From: Aequorivita viscosa
GTDB taxonomy: Bacteria; Bacteroidota; Bacteroidia; Flavobacteriales; Flavobacteriaceae
DNA length: 64,000 bases
NCBI RefSeq assembly: GCF_900106795.1
Contig: NZ_FNNS01000008.1
Span: 1 to 64,000 of the forward strand
Direction of reading: 5' to 3'
Position 1 is the first letter of the stretch. The number at the start of each line of letters is the position of its first letter. The translations under genes and the position numbers were made by a program. Shown here piece by piece: positions 5,281 to 56,268 of the stretch. The notes under the pieces are model-generated. The model worked only from the letters and a program-made list of their open reading frames with translations, searched no databases and was not told the origin of the DNA.

Positions 5281-6536
5281 GTTTTTTGCTTCTTCTTCTT
5301 AGCTGCTGGAAACAACACATTGTTTAGAATAAGCCTATAGCCTGGTGAGTTAGGATGTAGGGCCAACTCGGTAGGTGCATCCCCTACTCTATGCTGATAA
5401 TCTTCGGGATCGTGACCTCCGTAAAAAGTAAAAAAGCCTTTCCCATTTATTCCATGGATGTATCTTGCCTCGCCATTTGATTTGTTTTCTCCCATCACCA
5501 ATACATTAGCCTTTACGTGGTCGCGCTCAAATGCCGTAGTTTGCCCCATAAATCCTTTTACTAGAGCGGTATGATTTTGACAAAGCATGGTAGGAATAGG
5601 ATCCCATTTTGCAGAATAATCCATAAGCGTAAAGTAGTCAGATTCCTTTGGAACTTTTCGTTTGTTGGTCGTATCAATGCTTGAAAACTCATAAACCATC
5701 GGATTTCTTTCTAACGTAAAATCAGTAAATGCAAAGGTTTTATTGAAATCAATCTTACTTTGATAGTTTGGCTCGCTAGGATCACCATCAAACATGGGTT
5801 CACAAATATCCACCCCTTCAGCAGAAAGAGCAATATCGAAGCTATCAGTTGCACTACACATAGCAAACATAAATCCACCTCCAATTACATAATCTCGAAT
5901 ATTTTTAGCAACAGCCAGCTTTTCTTCAGAAACTTTTGAATACCCTAATTTGGCAGCAAGCGCTTCTGCTCGTTTCTTTTCTTCAATATACCAAGGAGTC
6001 GAACGGTAGGCCCTGTAAAACTTTCCATATTGACCCGTAAAATCTTCGTGATGTAAGTGCAACCAATCGTATAAAATTAACTGGTCGCTTAGAACCTCTT
6101 CGTCATAAATTACGGTATACGGAATTTCAGCATAAGTCAAAACCATAGTAACTGCATCATCCCACGGCAAATTACTTTTAGGCGAATAGACTGCTATTTT
6201 AGGCGCTTTCTCCAAAACCACAGCGTCCATATTTTTTGAAGGACTACTAATCTCGGTTAAAATTTGTTCCGTTCTACTATTGGAAAGCACTTCAAAAGAA
6301 ACACCGCGAATTTGACATTCTCTTTGAATTTCGGGAGTATCGGGCATCAAAAATGAACCACCTCGATAGTTCAATAACCATTTTACAGTTAGCTGCTTTT
6401 CCAAAACCCAATAGGTTATTCCGTAAGCTTTCAAATGTTCCTTTTGAAATTTTGCATCCATTGGAATAAGAATGTATGAAGCAAATGAATTAATTGAAAA
6501 TAAAAGTAAAAACAGTAAAGAGATTTTCTTGATCAT
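5277..6536 (-). CDS. Secreted glutamine-amidotransferase-like protein (often labelled asparagine synthetase B in flavobacteria)
   Basis: 419 residues from ATG 6536, chosen because it gives a signal peptide (MIKKISLLFLLLFSINSFAS). The longer frame to 6581 adds an unlikely hydrophilic tail. The central region has GGGFMFAMCSATDSFD, an arrangement of glycines and a cysteine like the nucleophile elbow of class I glutamine-amidotransferase folds, and several conserved-looking His/Tyr stretches (HGINGKGFFTFYGGHDPED). I recall flavobacterial relatives being named asparagine synthetase B. However, there is no N-terminal Cys nucleophile or ATP-pyrophosphatase domain, and the protein is exported, so that name looks wrong. 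Substrate unknown. It ends in a lysine-rich tail and is convergent with the OmpA-like gene. Confidence 0.75.
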   Translation of the reverse strand: MIKKISLLFLLLFSINSFASYILIPMDAKFQKEHLKAYGITYWVLEKQLTVKWLLNYRGGSFLMPDTPEIQRECQIRGVSFEVLSNSRTEQILTEISSPSKNMDAVVLEKAPKIAVYSPKSNLPWDDAVTMVLTYAEIPYTVIYDEEVLSDQLILYDWLHLHHEDFTGQYGKFYRAYRSTPWYIEEKKRAEALAAKLGYSKVSEEKLAVAKNIRDYVIGGGFMFAMCSATDSFDIALSAEGVDICEPMFDGDPSEPNYQSKIDFNKTFAFTDFTLERNPMVYEFSSIDTTNKRKVPKESDYFTLMDYSAKWDPIPTMLCQNHTALVKGFMGQTTAFERDHVKANVLVMGENKSNGEARYIHGINGKGFFTFYGGHDPEDYQHRVGDAPTELALHPNSPGYRLILNNVLFPAAKKKKQKT

Positions 6537-6752
6537 AGTGTAAATATAGCAACAAATTTTAAGCCAAGTCTTTGGCCACATAATTATTCAGAATACAGTG
6601 AAAAATAGTCATCTTTCAAATTATATTTCGATTCGTGAGCAAGAAAAGGTTAAAAAAATAAAAGATAAGTTAAATTCAAAGGATAAGTATTGATAGTAAA
6701 CAAATTAAGAAAAAAAGCTTAAAATCTAAAAGCTAAAGTTATTCTAAAGCCT

Positions 6753-6782
6753 TTGACAGCGCATTATCCTCTCCTAATTTTG
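6753..6782 (+). promoter_or_regulatory. Promoter of the outer-membrane barrel gene
   Basis: TTG (6753-6755), 19-base spacer, TAATTTTG (6775-6782), about 30 bp upstream of the ATG at 6812. It fits the Bacteroidota consensus well. Confidence 0.8.
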
Positions 6783-6811
6783 TCTGTAAATTACAATAAA
6801 AAACTATAGAT

Positions 6812-7411
6812 ATGAAAAAGACATTTTTAATTCTAACAACATTTTTAGGTATTGCTGTAGCATCAGCACAATCGGATAAATCGGGTTTTGACTTTGGTGT
6901 TCGCGGAGGTGTAAACTTTGCAAATATTACAACAAACGACGATTTAGGTTCTCCAGAGAGCCGAACAAACTTCTACGCAGGTTTGGTAGCAGAACTTCCT
7001 TTACAGGAACGCTTTTCATTGCAAGGAGAGGTTTTTTACTCTGGGCAAGGCTTTGAGCGAAACATTCCTTTAGTAGCTAACGAAAAAATAGCGTACACGA
7101 ATAAGGCAGACTATATTCAAGTACCTCTATTAGCTAAATTTTATATAGTAGAAGGGCTAAGCATCGCTGCTGGTCCACAATTTGGGTTTAAAGTAAGTGA
7201 AAAAGTTGCGTATGATTCTTCCGCAGTTGTTGGTTCTATTGAAACTGACAAAATTCAAACATTCGATTTTCAAGGAACTGGTGGTTTAGAATATAAGTTT
7301 GATAACGGATTGTTTATACAAGGACGATATACGTATGGGTTTTCTGACTTGGTTAAAAACAATGATATCCATACATCAGTATTTTCAGCTGGTCTAGGAT
7401 ATATGTTTTAA
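6812..7411 (+). CDS. Outer-membrane beta-barrel protein (PorT-like family)
   Basis: 199 residues with a signal peptide (MKKTFLILTTFLGIAVASAQ). The mature protein alternates aromatic and glycine-rich strands typical of a small eight-stranded barrel: FDFGVRGGVNFANIT near the start, YIQVPLLAKFYIVEGLSIAAGPQFG in the middle, and a final strand ending in aromatic Phe (GLGYMF), which is the usual barrel-assembly signal. It stands alone between its own promoter and a strong bidirectional terminator. Function within the family is undefined. Adhesion or a structural envelope role is possible, but nothing in the sequence decides. Confidence 0.88.
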   Translation: MKKTFLILTTFLGIAVASAQSDKSGFDFGVRGGVNFANITTNDDLGSPESRTNFYAGLVAELPLQERFSLQGEVFYSGQGFERNIPLVANEKIAYTNKADYIQVPLLAKFYIVEGLSIAAGPQFGFKVSEKVAYDSSAVVGSIETDKIQTFDFQGTGGLEYKFDNGLFIQGRYTYGFSDLVKNNDIHTSVFSAGLGYMF

Positions 7412-7432
7412 AATAAAACGTAGGTAATAAAT

Positions 7433-7460
7433 AAGGGTCGAGAAATTTCTCGACCCTTTT
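7433..7460. terminator. Bidirectional terminator between the barrel gene and dnaB
   Basis: A near-perfect inverted repeat, AAGGGTCGAGAAA with TTTCTCGACCCTT, flanked by A/T on both sides and TTTT to the right. It can serve the rightward barrel gene and the leftward dnaB. Confidence 0.85.
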
Positions 7461-7498
7461 CTATTTATTCTGTCCTGTAATTGTTGAGATATTCTCCT

Positions 7499-9052
7499 TT
7501 AGAAAGGAACATCGTTTTCATGCCCTCCACCAAAATCATCATTCATTGAGCTACCAAACGCTTCATTAGCTGATGGCAAATTCTTAGTTTTAAAAGAATC
7601 GTCATTTGCAGCATCATTCATTCTTGAATAAATTTCTGTTGGTGTATCAAAAGTATCGAGGTTTTCGAACTTACCAAGATGCCCAACGAACTTAAGTCTA
7701 ATTTCATCTAAGCCACCATTTCTGTGTTTCGCGACAATAAATTCAGCTTGGCCAGCGGTTGGTGAATGTTCTTCATCATCCCATTCATCAATTTTGTAGT
7801 ATTCTGGACGATAAATAAATGATACAATATCGGCATCCTGTTCAATTGCACCAGACTCACGAAGGTCGGAAAGCAGCGGGCGTTTACTCCCTCCACGGGT
7901 TTCTACTGCTCTAGAAAGCTGCGAAAGTGCAATTACTGGAATGCTTAATTCTTTAGCTAGTGCTTTTAAGTTTCGAGAAATAGTAGAAATTTCCTGCTCA
8001 CGATTTCCTCCTTTCTGGCTTCCGCCTGCTGTCATTAATTGAAGGTAATCAATTACAATTAGTTTAATATCGTGTTGAGATGAGAGTCTTCTAGCTTTTG
8101 CACGAAGGTCGAAAATAGAAAGCGAAGGGGTATCATCTATAAATAATGGTGCTTTCTCCAAATTTTTCACCTTCACATTTAATTGTTCCCATTCGTGCTT
8201 CTCAAGATTTCCAGTACGTAGTTTCTCTGAACTTAGATGAGTTTCTGACGAAATTAAACGCGTGATAAGCTGAACTGAGGACATCTCTAATGAGAAAAAT
8301 GCCACAGGAATATTGTGTTCTACAGCCATATTTCGCGCCATAGATAGCGTTAAAGCCGTTTTACCCATACCTGGACGAGCGGCAATAATAATCAAATCAC
8401 TTGGTTGCCATCCCGAAGTTAGTTCATCAAGTTTAGAAAAACCTGAAGGAACTCCAGAAAGTCCTTCTTTATTGGCTATTTCTTCAATTCTTTTCTTCGC
8501 TTGAATAACTAAGTCTTGCGCCGTTTCAGAAGATTTTTTAATATTTCCTTGAGTTACCTCATAGAGTTTTGCTTCTGCGCTATCTAACAAATCGAAAACA
8601 TCGGTTCCTTCGTCGTATGAAGCCTCTATTATTTCATTCGAAATTTTAATTAAGCTACGCTGAATATATTTTTGAAGAATAATACGTGCGTGGAATTCAA
8701 TATGTGCCGAAGAAGACACTTTTTGAGTGAGTTGAATCAAGTAAAACTCACCTCCTGCCAAGTCTAATTTTCCAGCTTTTTTAAGTTGTGACGAAACGGT
8801 TAATAAGTCAATTGGTTGACTATCTTCAAACAATGCATAAATCGCTTCAAAAATGTATTGATGCGCTGGTCTATAAAAAACATCGGCGTTTAAAATGTCA
8901 ATAACCTCATCGACTCCTTTTTTATCAATCATCAATGCGCCGAGAACAACCTCTTCTAAATCAATTGCTTGCGGAGGAACCTTCCCTTTTTCAAGCGAGA
9001 TAACCTGCGAACTGCGGGGTGAAAAACTAGTGTGGGGTTTAATTTTTTCCAT
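7499..9052 (-). CDS. dnaB: Replicative DNA helicase DnaB
   Basis: The hexameric 5'-3' helicase that unwinds DNA at the replication fork. 517 residues from ATG 9052 (MEKIKPHTSF). The frame extends 12 codons further to 9088, but that sequence is unlike the family. The N-terminal DnaB domain (about 30-135) with PPQAIDLEEVVLGALMID is followed by the RecA-like domain with Walker A ARPGMGKTALTLS, Walker B LIVIDYLQLM and the DLRESGAIEQDAD motif. There is no intein. The C-terminus is acidic and polar (ending HENDVPF), as often seen in this phylum. A TACATTCG box at 9064-9057 (minus) could be its -7 element, which would leave almost no leader. Confidence 0.97.
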   Translation of the reverse strand: MEKIKPHTSFSPRSSQVISLEKGKVPPQAIDLEEVVLGALMIDKKGVDEVIDILNADVFYRPAHQYIFEAIYALFEDSQPIDLLTVSSQLKKAGKLDLAGGEFYLIQLTQKVSSSAHIEFHARIILQKYIQRSLIKISNEIIEASYDEGTDVFDLLDSAEAKLYEVTQGNIKKSSETAQDLVIQAKKRIEEIANKEGLSGVPSGFSKLDELTSGWQPSDLIIIAARPGMGKTALTLSMARNMAVEHNIPVAFFSLEMSSVQLITRLISSETHLSSEKLRTGNLEKHEWEQLNVKVKNLEKAPLFIDDTPSLSIFDLRAKARRLSSQHDIKLIVIDYLQLMTAGGSQKGGNREQEISTISRNLKALAKELSIPVIALSQLSRAVETRGGSKRPLLSDLRESGAIEQDADIVSFIYRPEYYKIDEWDDEEHSPTAGQAEFIVAKHRNGGLDEIRLKFVGHLGKFENLDTFDTPTEIYSRMNDAANDDSFKTKNLPSANEAFGSSMNDDFGGGHENDVPF

Positions 9053-9163
9053 TGAGCGAATGTAAAGAAAATGATGAGATGAATCCATTATTTTTTAGGA
9101 TTCTCTATTAACATGTCGTCAACAATCTAACTGTTAACAACTTCAAATTTATGTTTATAACCA

Positions 9164-9195
9164 CAAAAAAAATCCGAAGCACGAACCTCGGATTT
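9164..9195 (-). terminator. Terminator of accA
   Basis: On the minus strand AAATCCGA pairs with TCGGATTT (9188-9195 and 9170-9177 on the plus strand), followed by a run of eight or more T residues (plus-strand A run 9165-9172). It lies 26 bp past the accA stop. Confidence 0.85.
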
Positions 9196-9220
9196 GCGGT
9201 ATTGTATACTATAGTTACTT

Positions 9221-10174
9221 CTACCCTTTAAAGGCTCCCATGTCCAGATATTTGTCCATCCGTTTTTTAACCAAATCTGTTGGGGATAACATTTTTAATT
9301 CTTTGTAAGTCTTTTCAATAACCTCAGCAACGGTCAAAAATGTTTTTTCGCGATTGCTATGAGCGCCACCTAAAGGTTCTTTTACTATCTCATCGATAAG
9401 TTTGAGTTTTTTCATATCGGTAGCTGTAAGTTTTAAGGCTTCAGCTGCTTGTTCTTTATACTCCCAGCTTCGCCATAAAATAGATGAACAGCTTTCTGGA
9501 GAAATAACCGAATACCAAGTATTTTCAAGCATAAGGACTCTATCGCCTACACCAATACCTAAAGCGCCGCCACTGGCACCTTCACCTATTATTATTACAA
9601 TTATAGGCACTTTTAATCGAGTCATTTCCAAAATATTTCGAGCAATCGCCTCTCCTTGTCCTCTTTCTTCAGCTTCAAGTCCTGGAAAAGCACCTGGAGT
9701 ATCAACAAGAGTAACAACTGGAAGCCCGAACTTTTCGGCAGATTTCATTAAGCGCAACGCCTTTCTGTAGCCTTCTGGATTTGCCATACCAAAATTTCGG
9801 TATTGGCGGGTTTTAGTATTGTATCCTTTTTGCTGGCCAATGAACATATAGCTCTGATTTCCAATTTTACCTAAACCGCCGACCATTGCCTTATCATCCT
9901 TAAAGTTTCTATCGCCGTGAAGTTCTAAAAAAGAATCCCCACACATGGCGTTAATATAATCCATAGTATAAGGACGGTCTGGATGACGTGAAAGCTGCAC
10001 TCGCTGCCAAGGCGTAAGATTTTTATATATTTCTGCTTTCTTTTCCTTGAGCTTTTTTTCAATTTGCTTACAGGTATTGCTAACATCTACATCGCTCTCC
10101 TCTCCTATAAGACAAGCTTTTTCGTATTGTTCCTGTAGTTCCTTAATAGGCAATTCAAAATCGAGATATTCCAT
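9221..10174 (-). CDS. accA: Acetyl-CoA carboxylase carboxyltransferase subunit alpha
   Basis: Transfers the carboxyl group from biotin to acetyl-CoA to give malonyl-CoA, the first step of fatty-acid synthesis, together with AccD. 317 residues. The N-terminal helical region ([14 protein letters not shown]) is followed by the crotonase-like core, with [24 protein letters not shown], and the oxyanion-hole glycines in [16 protein letters not shown], then [17 protein letters not shown]. Length and motifs match AccA; accD is not nearby. It has its own -7 box and its own terminator, so it appears monocistronic. Confidence 0.97.
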
Positions 10175-10207
10175 ATTAACTACCTTTCTTTAAAATTTAT
10201 TAATTCA

Positions 10208-10215
10208 CAAAGATA
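10208..10215 (-). promoter_or_regulatory. -7 element of accA
   Basis: Minus strand TATCTTTG (10215-10208), a perfect TAnnTTTG, 34 bp upstream of the accA ATG. A good -33 TTG is not evident at the usual spacing. Confidence 0.6.
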
Positions 10216-10226
10216 AAATTTTGTGC

Positions 10227-11129
10227 TTAGGTTTTTGATAATCTTTTTCGTTTTCTTTCCTGAGTAATCTTAATAATTCCGTTAGCTATGACTGTCAACA
10301 AGATAATGATAGCTCCGTAGTAAAACTGAGACCCCATTTTTTCAGCATCTCCCAAAACCAACAAAGCTAATATTATTCCGTAAACCGGCTCCATATTAAT
10401 AGTTAACATTACGGTATAGGGACTTATCCATTTCATAACGTGAATAGAAGCTATAAAAGCATACGCAGTACAACCCGAAGCTAAAATGGCTAGATACATC
10501 CAATCGTGAGTAGAAACACTAAAAAATTCGGTGGTAAAACTGCCAGAGATAGCGAGATATATGGAGATTCCGATGACACCAAATAGCAATTCATAAAACG
10601 ATATAGCCGAAGCCTTATGTTTCAAAACGAATTTCCCATTAATTACAGAAAACAATGCGCTTAAAAATGCAGATATTAAGGCTAAAACAATTCCTAATGT
10701 ATAGGAAGCCTCTACATCAAAAATGATATAAAGTCCGACCATTACTAGCAGTCCAAAAAACACCTCATACCAAATAATTTTTCTTCCATAAAGTAATGGC
10801 TCTAGTAGCGATGTAAAAAATGCTCCTGTAGAAATAACAGCAAGCGTTACCGAAACATTTGATGCTTTTATTGCACCAAAAAAAGTGAGCCAATGTAAAG
10901 CAATGATGATTCCAGCCAAGGCAAAACCGCCTAGCGTCTTCATTGAGAACCTAAGGTTCTCCTTTTTAATTTTTAAGTACAAAAACACAAATCCGGTAGC
11001 CAGTAACATTCTATACCAAACTAGTGGAATTGCTTCAAGAGTTATCAATGCTCCTAAAACCGCAGTGAATCCCCAAATAAAAACTATAAAATGGAGATGA
11101 AGGTAGTTGAGGAGCTTATCGTTTTGCAT
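10227..11129 (-). CDS. EamA/DMT-family transporter
   Basis: 300 residues with about ten hydrophobic segments arranged as two EamA repeats: the first from about 8-135 (FIVFIWGFTAVLGALITLEAIP), the second from about 150-285 (LALISAFLSALFSVINGKFV), the order of inner-membrane drug/metabolite exporters. A Lys/Arg-rich tail (TQERKRKRLSKT) closes the protein and should be cytoplasmic. The start overlaps the end of the upstream LptF/G gene by 14 bp, so the two are translated together as the end of the tgt operon. Substrate cannot be read from the sequence; amino acids or other metabolites are typical. Confidence 0.9.
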   Translation of the reverse strand: MQNDKLLNYLHLHFIVFIWGFTAVLGALITLEAIPLVWYRMLLATGFVFLYLKIKKENLRFSMKTLGGFALAGIIIALHWLTFFGAIKASNVSVTLAVISTGAFFTSLLEPLLYGRKIIWYEVFFGLLVMVGLYIIFDVEASYTLGIVLALISAFLSALFSVINGKFVLKHKASAISFYELLFGVIGISIYLAISGSFTTEFFSVSTHDWMYLAILASGCTAYAFIASIHVMKWISPYTVMLTINMEPVYGIILALLVLGDAEKMGSQFYYGAIIILLTVIANGIIKITQERKRKRLSKT

Positions 11130-12195
11130 TTCTTAAAAGATAAATTGCCAGGATTGCGAACACAATATTCGGAAACCAAGTGGCAATAAAAGGTGAGAAT
11201 GAACTCTGCTCGGCCATTGTTCCGAAGACTTTATCAAAAAAGATAAAAATCATTCCAATACCGATTCCTATGGCGAGGTTTACGCCCATCCCTCCTCTTC
11301 TTTTTACAGAAGATACAGCTACTGCGATAATGGTAAGTATATATGCAGAAACAGGTAAACTCCAGCGTTTGTAGCGAACAACTTCATACCTTCCAATATT
11401 CGATGATCCCCGTGCCTTTTCTTTTTTAATAAAATCGTTTAATTCTGTAAAACTAAGTGTTTCAGCTATGTAGGTTACTGGGGTTAAATCTTCCAAATCA
11501 AAAGAAAACACAGTATCTAATCGTTGACTTCGCTCTAAAATATCAGAAGTTTTTCCAATTTCTCTTTTTGTATAGTTGAAAAGTGTATACGTACTGTCCT
11601 CAGGGTTGTATTTAATTTGTGTAGCCGCAATTTTATACTTCATTTCGTTGCCCTCGAAATGCTCCAAAGTAAAATTACTTCCAATATTCTCATTTACATT
11701 GAAATAGCTCACGTAGATATAATCGTTATCATTAATTTGGGTATAGACGTTGTTCTGATCTCGATCTTGCTTCCCTTTTTTTAAATAATTATATGAAAAC
11801 TCATTAAAGCCTTTACTCGCCTTGGGCGCTAAATACATACTGAATATCAAGGCTGAAATACATACAATAGTAGCTCCAATTATATAAGGTCGTAAAAATC
11901 GATAATAGGAAACACCGCTACTCAAAAATGCAATAACTTCGGTGTTGTTAGCGAGTTTTGAAGTAAACCAGATTACTGATAAGAAGAGGAATAAAGGAAA
12001 AAGGAGGTTGGCAAAATAGATGGTAAAGTCGTACAAATACTTTATCACCTCTATTATTGGCACTTCGTTATCGAGAATTTTATCAATCTTTTCAGCAAGG
12101 TGAACTGTTATACCTATAGGAATAAAAAGCAGCAACAAAAGGGCGAAGGTGCCCAAGTATTTTCGCAATATGTATCTATCCAGTATGCTGAGCAT
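11116..12195 (-). CDS. LptF/LptG-family permease
   Basis: Inner-membrane permease of the lipopolysaccharide exporter (LptB2FG), which extracts LPS and drives it to the outer membrane. 359 residues. The N-terminal transmembrane block (LDRYILRKYLGTFALLLLLF) and three further helices carry a periplasmic beta-jellyroll insert of about 190 residues (from about 115 to 270), followed by a C-terminal membrane block with GGMGVNLAIGIGIGMIFIFFD, as in YjgP/YjgQ. In Bacteroidota such genes often follow tgt, as here (1-nt gap). Whether it acts as LptF or LptG cannot be decided from one sequence. Confidence 0.92.
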   Translation of the reverse strand: MLSILDRYILRKYLGTFALLLLLFIPIGITVHLAEKIDKILDNEVPIIEVIKYLYDFTIYFANLLFPLFLFLSVIWFTSKLANNTEVIAFLSSGVSYYRFLRPYIIGATIVCISALIFSMYLAPKASKGFNEFSYNYLKKGKQDRDQNNVYTQINDNDYIYVSYFNVNENIGSNFTLEHFEGNEMKYKIAATQIKYNPEDSTYTLFNYTKREIGKTSDILERSQRLDTVFSFDLEDLTPVTYIAETLSFTELNDFIKKEKARGSSNIGRYEVVRYKRWSLPVSAYILTIIAVAVSSVKRRGGMGVNLAIGIGIGMIFIFFDKVFGTMAEQSSFSPFIATWFPNIVFAILAIYLLRNAKR

Positions 12196-52486: not shown

Positions 52487-52951
52487 ATGAACCTACTCGA
52501 ACTCCACAAAAAAGAAAATTTAACTGAAAACATCAAGTTATGCAAAGTTTATATTCAGCTAGAAGAACTTTTAAAGGAGTTAAATAAGAAGAAGCTTTCG
52601 CCACAAGTTGTTGAGCATATAAATCTTGAAATTAAGGAATTGAATACTTCATCCCTTACTGATTCTAGATTGTTAAAGTTCGCCAAGGAGAAGCGAACCA
52701 AGATCATTAGGCTATTAGAAAAAGAACATAAAATTGTACCTAAAAACTATTACCGTAATCTATGGTTAGTTTTAGGAATGTCGGCTTTTGGGTTACCACT
52801 CGGTGTCGTCTTCGGGTTAATGACTAGTAATATGGGGTTATTAGCCATAGGCTTACCTATTGGAATGGCTATAGGAATTGCTGTAGGGACTAAAATGGAC
52901 AATAAAGCACAGGAAGAAGGTAGGCAACTACAAATTGAGATTTCGTATTAA
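52487..52951 (+). CDS. Membrane protein with C-terminal glycine zipper
   Basis: 154 residues. The first 90 are charged and helical (EELLKELNKKKLSPQVVEHI). The C-terminal part has two hydrophobic stretches rich in spaced glycines (LGMSAFGLPLGVVFGLMTS, then GLPIGMAIGIAVGTKMDN), the glycine-zipper pattern of membrane oligomers. No signal peptide. Family not recognised. It is followed within 40 bp by the GDSL-like exoprotein gene on the same strand. Confidence 0.72.
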   Translation: MNLLELHKKENLTENIKLCKVYIQLEELLKELNKKKLSPQVVEHINLEIKELNTSSLTDSRLLKFAKEKRTKIIRLLEKEHKIVPKNYYRNLWLVLGMSAFGLPLGVVFGLMTSNMGLLAIGLPIGMAIGIAVGTKMDNKAQEEGRQLQIEISY

Positions 52952-52988: not shown

Positions 52989-54245
52989 ATGAAAAAACTG
53001 CTTTTCTTAATTTCCTTCGCCATAGTCAGCTTCTCGATTCACGGCCAAAGCACTAAAAAAGTCTTGTTCATTGGCAATAGCTACACCGCTGCCAATAACC
53101 TACCGTTACTCGTAAAAAACATGGCTAACAGTACTGGCGATGCATTGATATACGACTCGTACACACCGGGAGGCTACCGATTTATGAATCACGCTTCTGA
53201 CCAAACCACGCTTTCAAAAATCAACTCAGATAATTGGGATTATGTTGCGCTTCAAGGGCAAAGTCAGGAAACATCATTTAGTGAAGCGCAAATGCAAGCA
53301 GAAGTGTACCCTCCTGCCGAAACATTAAGCAATGCTATTAGAACAAACAACGAATGTTCGCAACCGTTATTTTATATGACATGGGGACGCGAAAATGGCG
53401 ATGCAACTAATTGTTCTTTCATTCCTTGGGTTTGCACCTATGAAGGAATGGACGATGCTATTAGGGCAAGCTATATTTTTATGTCTGAAAGTAACGCAGC
53501 CGAACTCGCACCAGCAGGAGCTGTTTGGCGTTTTCTCAGGGAAAATTATCCGAATATTAATTTGTATTCAGGTGACGGCTCGCATCCTTCATTGGCAGGA
53601 TCGTATGCCGTGGCGTGTGCCTTTTACACTATGATTTACAAAAAAGACCCTACTTTTATTTCCTGGAATTCAACTTTAAATGAAACCGAAGCCAATCTTA
53701 TAAAAATGGCTGCTAAAACAATCGTTTTTAACGAAATATCCGATTGGGATTTTACACTATCGCCAATTGCAGATTTTTCTGAAGAAATTAATAACGGTGA
53801 GGCCTCATTCACACATACTGGAAGTGACTTCGAATCAATTCTTTGGGATTTTGGCGATGGAAATACTTCTACAGAAACTAACCCAATTCATACATTTATA
53901 GAAAATGGAATTTATGAAGTTTCACAAACCATTACAAAATGCGAAAAATCTGATACTAAAACAAAAACAATTGAAATTATAACCTTACATACAGAGGGTT
54001 TTAACAAACAGCAGTTTGCCGTTTATCCCAACCCCACTGCGGGCAAATTAACCGTAAATTTGGTAAAACATTACAAACAAGTAAACATTTCAATTTCAAG
54101 TCTTTCTGGAAAGACCTTGCTAAAAACGACTATCAAAAATTCAACTAACTTTGAATTCAACATTTCTACTTTAAGTAAAGGATTATACATTTTAAAAGTT
54201 CTTGCAGACGACAACGTTTACGTTCAAAAAATAGTAAAAGAATAA
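52989..54245 (+). CDS. T9SS-secreted SGNH/GDSL-like hydrolase with PKD domain
   Basis: 418 residues from ATG 52989, which gives a signal peptide (MKKLLFLISFAIVSFSIHGQ); the frame is open from 52935 but that part overlaps the previous gene. Residues about 22-265 form an SGNH-type domain: the nucleophile block VLFIGNSYTAANNLP, GQSQETSF and the catalytic DGSHPSLAG (Asp/His). A PKD domain (about 268-340: ILWDFGDGNTSTETNPIHTF) follows, and a T9SS sorting domain ends the protein (about 350-418: FAVYPNPTAGKLTV, KGLYILKVLADDN, KIVKE). It is likely an esterase or deacetylase acting on an outside substrate. Confidence 0.9.
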   Translation: MKKLLFLISFAIVSFSIHGQSTKKVLFIGNSYTAANNLPLLVKNMANSTGDALIYDSYTPGGYRFMNHASDQTTLSKINSDNWDYVALQGQSQETSFSEAQMQAEVYPPAETLSNAIRTNNECSQPLFYMTWGRENGDATNCSFIPWVCTYEGMDDAIRASYIFMSESNAAELAPAGAVWRFLRENYPNINLYSGDGSHPSLAGSYAVACAFYTMIYKKDPTFISWNSTLNETEANLIKMAAKTIVFNEISDWDFTLSPIADFSEEINNGEASFTHTGSDFESILWDFGDGNTSTETNPIHTFIENGIYEVSQTITKCEKSDTKTKTIEIITLHTEGFNKQQFAVYPNPTAGKLTVNLVKHYKQVNISISSLSGKTLLKTTIKNSTNFEFNISTLSKGLYILKVLADDNVYVQKIVKE

Positions 54246-54406: not shown

Positions 54407-55504
54407 ATGAAAATAATATACCCTTTAGCTGTTTTATTCTTAATTACTTCACTTGCTCCAAATACAATTTTTGCACAATGTGAAGATGTAACAATTGAAA
54501 GCTTAACAAACCCAGGTCCGTATGAAGTTGCTACACTTACAGAAGATGACGGTATTCGAAACGGTCCAGATTATTTAGACGCAACAGTATATTATCCAAC
54601 CAATGCTACACCACCGTATGCAAGTATCGCTATTGTTCCTGGCTTTACTGCACAACCTTCGAGTGTGGAAGAATGGGGGCCGTTTTACGCTTCGCACGGC
54701 ATTGTAACTATCATAATAGGCACTAACTCACCATTTGAGTTCCCCGATCTGAGAGCCACTGCACTGTTAGATGCATTAGAGACATTACGACAAGAAAATG
54801 AACGCCAAAATTCGCCATTAGAAAACCAACTTGATGTAGACAAATTTGCCGTAAGCGGGTGGTCGATGGGCGGTGGTGGCGCACAATTGGCTGCACAAAT
54901 GGATAGCTCGATTAAAGCAGTTCTAGCATTATGCCCGTGGTATCCACAAGCAACTTTTAACCACAACAGCCCTGTATTAATTTTTAGCGGCCAGGATGAC
55001 ACGGTTGCTCCTCCAGGAATACACGCCGATGTTCACTACAATGTGACTCCAGACACTACTAACAAACTACTTTTTGAAGTTGCAAACGGAAGTCACTCTG
55101 TTGCTAATACACCAACCGGTGGAGATGGTGTAGTGGGAAAAATCGCACTTTCGTGGCTTAAATTATATTTGGATGATAATGATTGCTATTGTCCTTTACT
55201 AACCGATTCACTTTTAGTCGATCCTCCTGCGGCGTCTAAAGTTGAAGCTAGTTTTGAGTGTGAGCCAATTATTGGTATTGCTGAAAACAATATCGACATC
55301 AGTATTTTCCCCAATCCAACCGATAACTTTATAACCGTTAGTATTCCTACTATTGCCAGCTATAAAGTGTATTCTGCTTTAGGGCAACTTTTACTTTCTG
55401 GTGAAATCGACCAAAGCAACAAACAAATCGACTTTTCACAATTCGCAAAAGGAATGTATTATGTACGTGTAGAAAATGAAACAATACGGATTATTAGAAA
55501 ATAA
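54407..55504 (+). CDS. T9SS-secreted PETase/cutinase-like esterase
   Basis: 365 residues. Signal peptide (MKIIYPLAVLFLITSLAPNT, cleaved near 24), alpha/beta hydrolase (about 25-285), T9SS sorting domain (about 292-365: SIFPNPTDNFITVS, KGMYYVRVE, RIIRK). Family features: IVPGFTAQPSSVEEWGP (oxyanion loop, Phe80), GWSMGGGGAQ (Trp152, Ser153, Met154), CPWYPQ (Trp178), SGQDDTVAP (Asp198), NGSHSVAN (His230). This matches polyester hydrolases of the cutinase/PETase type nearly block for block, with Phe where Ideonella PETase has Tyr87. Cysteines 25, 260, 262 and 285 may form disulfides. Aequorivita and Kaistella esterases with such a T9SS tail have been reported to act on PET. Natural substrate more likely cutin- or lipid-like polyesters. 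Confidence 0.93.
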   Translation: MKIIYPLAVLFLITSLAPNTIFAQCEDVTIESLTNPGPYEVATLTEDDGIRNGPDYLDATVYYPTNATPPYASIAIVPGFTAQPSSVEEWGPFYASHGIVTIIIGTNSPFEFPDLRATALLDALETLRQENERQNSPLENQLDVDKFAVSGWSMGGGGAQLAAQMDSSIKAVLALCPWYPQATFNHNSPVLIFSGQDDTVAPPGIHADVHYNVTPDTTNKLLFEVANGSHSVANTPTGGDGVVGKIALSWLKLYLDDNDCYCPLLTDSLLVDPPAASKVEASFECEPIIGIAENNIDISIFPNPTDNFITVSIPTIASYKVYSALGQLLLSGEIDQSNKQIDFSQFAKGMYYVRVENETIRIIRK

Positions 55505-55674: not shown

Positions 55675-55704
55675 ACTTCTGTATTTCTTTAAAAATTCTT
55701 GCAA

Positions 55705-56268
55705 ATGATAACAACCAGATTAGGAAATAAGACAGATTTTGAAGGTGTATTAGCACTTCAATCAAGATATCTTTACCGTAACTTAAGTGATGAAGAGCGG
55801 AAAAAAGGATTTGTAACCACGCCATTTACCGTAAGTCAGCTTGAAGAAATTCTTTTACAAAATGGATTGTTTATTGCTGAAACTGAAGACGGAACAATCG
55901 TTTCGTATGTTTTTGCTGGAAGTTGGAAATATTTTGAACAATGGGAAATCTTCAATTTTATGGTTTCCCGATTTCCAAAATTATCGTTTCAGGGAAAGGA
56001 AATTACAACTTTAAACAGTTTTCAATACGGCCCCATTTGTATTGATGAAAAACACAGGGGAACGGGGTTATTAAATAAGATATTTGAAGAAATGCGACTT
56101 GAGTTTTTCAAAAAATATCCTATCTCAATTACATTCATAAACAAAGTCAATGCTATTTCTACAAACGCACATACCAAAAAACTGGGTTGGGAGATAATTG
56201 ATGAGTTCCAATTTAATAATAACACCTACATCGGTTTAGCGCTCGATATGTCGAAGTCTGTGCTGTAA
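55705..56268 (+). CDS. GNAT-family N-acetyltransferase
   Basis: 187 residues from ATG 55705 (MITTRLGNKTDFEGV). The GNAT acetyl-CoA block is recognisable in YGPICIDEKHRGTGLLNKIFEEM (motif A, R-G-T-G), followed by FINKVNAISTNAHTKKLGWE (motif B with the Asn and Leu-Gly-Trp). No membrane segment. Substrate unknown. It stands alone, convergent with the polyphosphate operon. Confidence 0.88.
   Translation: MITTRLGNKTDFEGVLALQSRYLYRNLSDEERKKGFVTTPFTVSQLEEILLQNGLFIAETEDGTIVSYVFAGSWKYFEQWEIFNFMVSRFPKLSFQGKEITTLNSFQYGPICIDEKHRGTGLLNKIFEEMRLEFFKKYPISITFINKVNAISTNAHTKKLGWEIIDEFQFNNNTYIGLALDMSKSVL

Follow-up and report, generated by a model that had tools for sequence, protein, structure and literature searches.

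A new yet ordinary member of the PET27/PET30 family of T9SS-exported esterases in Aequorivita viscosa

A 64,000-nt stretch of DNA from the marine bacterium Aequorivita viscosa (the window) carries the gene for a PETase-like esterase beside a gene for a second T9SS-tailed hydrolase. The locus raises the question of whether the esterase is a PET hydrolase and whether the two genes form a small unit for the breakdown of natural polyesters, as the initial annotation had suggested. The esterase gene (the window esterase) is an ORF at 54407-55504 on the plus strand, starts with ATG and encodes 365 amino acids. It is a new yet ordinary member of the published PET27/PET30 family of T9SS-exported esterases, as evidenced along the whole gene by the domains PF12740 and PF18962, the match to PDB entry 7PZJ and the core identity to PET27.

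PF12740 (PETase) was matched in Pfam over residues 30-265 with an E-value of 5.6e-56 and a score of 190 bits against a cut-off of 28. No other PF12740 gene is present in the genome. The top PDB match was PET30 (7PZJ) with an E-value of 8.5e-147. With this E-value and the PF12740 score the family match is far beyond chance. Three regions were distinguished, all on the plus strand. A putative signal peptide region (residues 1-24, 54407-54478) has a hydrophobic N-terminus and ends in FAQ followed by C25; signal cleavage of PET27-PET30 has been published at 23-24. The alpha/beta hydrolase (PETase) domain is located at 54494-55201. A T9SS type A C-terminal sorting domain covers residues 300-365 (55304-55501) and was matched by PF18962 in Pfam (E 1.9e-11) and TIGR04183 in NCBIfam (E 7.4e-12), confirming the export domain that had been proposed.

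The core identity of the window esterase in the alignment was 80.4% to PET27, 82.1% to PET29 and 71.7% to PET30, compared to 35-40% to IsPETase, LCC, Ple628, Ple629, 7CWQ and the PBS(A) depolymerase 8C65. The family placement and the likeness to enzymes of Aequorivita and Kaistella noted earlier were right and are now quantified. A structure model predicted with 20 relatives had a mean pLDDT of 76.9. Its first match in Foldseek was 7PZJ (E 8.3e-34), and VIA-align gave a Z of 34.6 and an rmsd of 2.0 over 256 residues for 7PZJ, with other PETases next at Z about 30. PET30 is the best solved relative, with 68% identity across the aligned fold. The core of the model was usable, but the pLDDT of loop 78-82 was below 50 and the cleft could not be judged from the model due to this low confidence. 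Grouping with dienelactone hydrolases or lipases was checked and did not occur, the best Pfam family being PETase. Identity as a dienelactone hydrolase (PF01738, EC 3.1.1.45) was rejected. The window esterase has Ser153 where these enzymes have a Cys nucleophile and gave no match to their profile at E 0.01, while 10 of 21 relatives matched it, weakly only. Core identity to the dienelactone hydrolase 1DIN was 27%, below the range for IsPETase, LCC and similar enzymes. A type III PETase was also ruled out, as the GHSQG motif described in the literature at the nucleophile of these enzymes is absent.

Alignment to IsPETase and PET30 placed the catalytic triad at S153-D198-H230. The GWSMGGGG motif (residues 151-158) and the D-x3-P block (D198-TVA-P202) were found as claimed, and the Trp-rich site corresponds to W152 and W178, which line the active site. 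F80, M154 and W178 form the binding triple (F-M-W), which is the same in PET27, PET28 and PET29. W152, M154, W178 and S231 align to W159, M161, W185 and S238 of IsPETase, so that four of the five residues in the set Y87/W159/M161/W185/S238 are kept. The fifth, Tyr87 of the Ideonella enzyme, is replaced by Phe80, and this correspondence was exact in the alignment. The GSHS block is present at 228-231 but is not the block of the subfamily; it is an exception, since close Bacteroidota members carry GNHS or GDHS. The DS1 disulfide, which lies beside the active site in IsPETase (C203-C239), is absent as it is in PET30, with G195 and V232 in its place. C262 and C285, the cysteines of a putative C262-C285 bridge, are retained. 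H206 and H210 stand where IsPETase has S214 and I218.

Comparison with 23 close Bacteroidota relatives identified a number of states found only in the window esterase, including R161L, V164Q, L165M, V173L, L179Y, N181Q, L184F and N229S. In a wider sequence set Ser229 was also present in two distant members (L073 copy 0 and L075). The states absent from close relatives cluster at residues 161-184. The divergent positions are close in sequence to the binding Trp and N229S adjoins the catalytic His (H230), so the substrate range could differ, as these positions are otherwise conserved. Six unique departures from the strong consensus were counted, a number which is high yet not extreme since other members reach 5 to 8. 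Judged by sequence the window esterase is divergent, but a special function is not proven.

A phylogenetic tree of 46 sequences was constructed under LG+G4. The window esterase fell inside a flavobacterial clade with PET27, PET29 and PET30 (99/95), apart from the type I/II enzymes. Within it, the supported PET27 clade of Aequorivita (98/96) does not include the window esterase, whose exact inner branch was not fixed by the tree. Ten of the 28 Aequorivita genomes carry the esterase. Across the family it is sparse: 14 of 397 sampled genomes, excluding the window's own, carried a copy of at least 51% identity. No close copy was found in the plasmids searched, where the best match was 36% identical. 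In most relatives the esterase is a stand-alone gene among housekeeping genes. In A. antarctica, A. lipolytica, A. vladivostokensis, CIP111184 and two MAGs it lies beside one conserved gene set, which we take from the first residues to be priA, nadC and rlmH. In Patiriisocius, Ulvibacter, Marinirhabdus and relatives it is often downstream of what is presumably a polA-like gene, named by recognition. A patchy gene which changes its chromosomal place alone argues against a dedicated polyester operon.

The position outside the PET27 clade, the different chromosomal place and the cluster of states at residues 161-184 would be consistent with a xenolog acquired from outside the genus in place of a vertical ortholog of PET27. 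However, a clade of the window esterase with all Aequorivita copies was not rejected (p-AU 0.15), no donor lineage was found and the nearest sequence by identity was PET29 (82%). In genome G001, moreover, a copy inside the PET27 clade stands beside the same ClC-type gene that is upstream in the window, and rearrangement can thus explain the location of the window esterase. An origin outside the genus is therefore considered unlikely. At the G001 locus (L042, about 8945-11544) the ClC-side genes of the window meet the right-hand flank of the PET27 locus, which suggests that the chromosome was rearranged with the break at the esterase. The genes of the PET27 clade (L009, L010, L011, L013, L014 and L042) share a common upstream stretch with a promoter-like TTG-N19-TAnTTTTC that ends about 31 nt before the ATG. 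This element is visible in the alignment and is not clearly retained in the window. Its presence at another locus in G001 suggests that it moves with the gene. Scans for promoters and terminators around the esterase and the neighbouring hydrolase gene gave nothing beyond shuffles.

The neighbour had been noted as a second T9SS hydrolase of the SGNH type and was found to be one. It is encoded on the plus strand at 52989-54245, in an ORF open from TTG 52935, with ATG 52989 the probable start as judged by orthologs. It is an SGNH-superfamily DUF4886 protein with a PKD domain and a T9SS tail, as evidenced by Pfam matches to PF16227 (E 1e-9, 38.2 bits against a cut-off of 26.7), PKD_4 and Por_Secre_tail. 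It matched 4S1P across the catalytic domain (E 2.1e-7), and its GNSYT and SHPS blocks are conserved in five orthologs. A single-sequence structure prediction reached a pLDDT of 34.5, too low to be of use. The two genes are on one strand with 161 bp between them, both products are T9SS cargo, and genome G002 has the identical pair in the same order and spacing in a largely different neighbourhood. This would fit a two-gene unit for the utilisation of polyesters or ester polymers, with both hydrolases co-expressed and acting together. However, 81 T9SS tails scored above the cut-off in this genome (3.5 Mb), so adjacent T9SS cargo genes are not rare. The pair is adjacent in only two of the ten esterase-bearing Aequorivita genomes (the window and G002) and an intact DUF4886 gene is absent from seven of them. 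G013 has both genes apart, while G014 and G023 have the DUF4886 gene between ClC and ppx without an esterase. DUF4886 was not found near the esterase at the other loci examined, in Aequorivita and beyond. DUF4886 also has no known activity or function according to a 2022 review, and among the SGNH families that have been characterised the acyl groups of carbohydrates are the main targets (PMC9487903). A joint unit is thus improbable, and the SGNH neighbour is not established as part of one with the esterase. The earlier suggestion of a small unit was only weakly borne out: the pair recurs in one other Aequorivita genome, but most esterase-bearing relatives are without the SGNH gene, and a pair found in two genomes is not a general unit.

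Intact DUF4886 genes were present in 5 of 28 Aequorivita genomes, and G025 has a DUF4886 fragment near ppx. The usual place of the gene in Aequorivita is between the ClC gene and ppx. A 154-aa gene at 52487-52951 was considered as a companion of the esterase and dropped, as it occurs in 91 of 397 Flavobacteriaceae genomes and lies 307 kb away in G332; in Polaribacter DS7-9 a homolog adjoins the esterase. The 154-aa protein has no Pfam match and occurs in 3 of 28 Aequorivita genomes, where the other two copies are weak (29-31% identity). A 189-aa protein at 55699-56268 had no match in Pfam or NCBIfam and is acetyltransferase-like by eye; copies of 70-74% identity are located elsewhere in the genomes of G001, G002 and G013. 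In another Flavobacteriaceae genome (L108, G187:C35:20000-38000) three consecutive T9SS-tailed alpha/beta hydrolases are encoded on one strand at 6459-10236; one is carboxylesterase-like (PF02230) and the other two are tandem paralogs of the PETase family. For a polyester-degrading cluster these three genes are a stronger candidate than the window.

PET27, from Aequorivita sp. CIP111184, and PET30 are the two Bacteroidota enzymes published as PET-active, both of them weakly so, and PET27 released TPA from PET foil (PMC8767016). PET28 and PET29 were active on PCL, BHET and Impranil with no measurable PET hydrolysis, and PET27 and PET30 were termed promiscuous esterases by their authors, who do not count them as PET esterases strictly speaking (PMC8767016). 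The window esterase retains the F-M-W triple together with W152 and S231, and its core is 80% identical to that of PET27, all of which would fit a genuine PET hydrolase that depolymerises amorphous PET film measurably. However, PET28 and PET29 have the identical triple, and the sequence cannot for this reason settle the PET activity of the window esterase. The cores of PET27 and PET29 share 96% identity and differ at nine positions, and at these the window esterase agrees with PET29 at five (118, 121, 225, 255 and 257), with PET27 at one (30) and with neither at three (57, 115 and 135). The histidines at 206 and 210 also stand against measurable PET hydrolysis like that of PET27, which is regarded as somewhat doubtful. 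The window esterase may attack PET weakly. If PET is attacked at all, the attack is likely to be incidental as well as weak. PCL or BHET is likely to be hydrolysed, and in nature the enzyme probably acts on aliphatic esters or natural polyesters rather than on PET. A scan of the genome for MHETase/tannase gave no match; control genomes gave none either, so this negative carries no information.

The window esterase is thus very probably a stand-alone, T9SS-exported promiscuous carboxyl-ester hydrolase of the Bacteroidota PET27/PET30 subfamily (polyesterase-lipase-cutinase), secreted or at the cell surface. From its domains and from family knowledge, the signal peptide would take the protein across the inner membrane (Sec), and the C-terminal tail would direct it through the type IX system across the outer membrane. 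The genome contains sprA, the T9SS translocon gene. Alignment to solved relatives suggests that Phe80, Trp152, Met154 and Trp178 line an open groove that would hold short to medium acyl esters or polyesters. Ser153, activated by His230 and Asp198, would attack the ester bond via an acyl-enzyme as in the family, and the enzyme would work extracellularly, on aliphatic as well as short aromatic esters. It would act alone, with no obligate pairing with the SGNH neighbour. A far more ambitious proposal is a distinct T9SS PETase-like branch in which the L161/Y179/F184/S229 region sets its substrate range apart from that of PET27 or makes it the more active of the two on polyesters, with joint action of the DUF4886 SGNH hydrolase in part of Aequorivita. 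This is very improbable; if true it would give the first function for a DUF4886 SGNH hydrolase.

As a moderately divergent new family member the window esterase is of low interest unless it has unusual activity. T9SS-exported polyesterases, which include cold-active enzymes, form a small set, and the window esterase extends it by a divergent natural variant. PET27 and PET29 differ in PET activity despite their near-identical cores, and comparison with a third enzyme that has diverged further yet retains the triple could help to show which residues outside the triple matter.

The SGNH neighbour has the GNS block and the D-x-x-HPS block in common with DUF4886 SGNH hydrolases such as PDB 4S1P, and differs from them in its extra PKD and T9SS domains. 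Among the polyesterases, type I/II cutinases such as LCC share the fold, the triad and the M161 and W185 equivalents with the window esterase, while IsPETase, a type IIb PETase, shares the fold, the triad and the W159, S238, M161 and W185 equivalents. Compared to both, the window esterase is 35-40% identical, has F80 for Y87, is without the DS1 cysteines and has an added T9SS tail. PET30 from Kaistella jeonii (7PZJ) shares the architecture, the fold, the absence of DS1 and both C262 and C285, but has Tyr178 where the window esterase has Trp178. The closest systems are PET27 (WP_111881932, Aequorivita sp. CIP111184; L010) and PET29 (A. vladivostokensis; L011), described in PMC8767016, which have the same genus, architecture, triad, F-M-W triple and T9SS tail. 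Compared to these two, the window esterase is at a different chromosomal locus, outside their supported clade, and is changed at 161-184 and by N229S.
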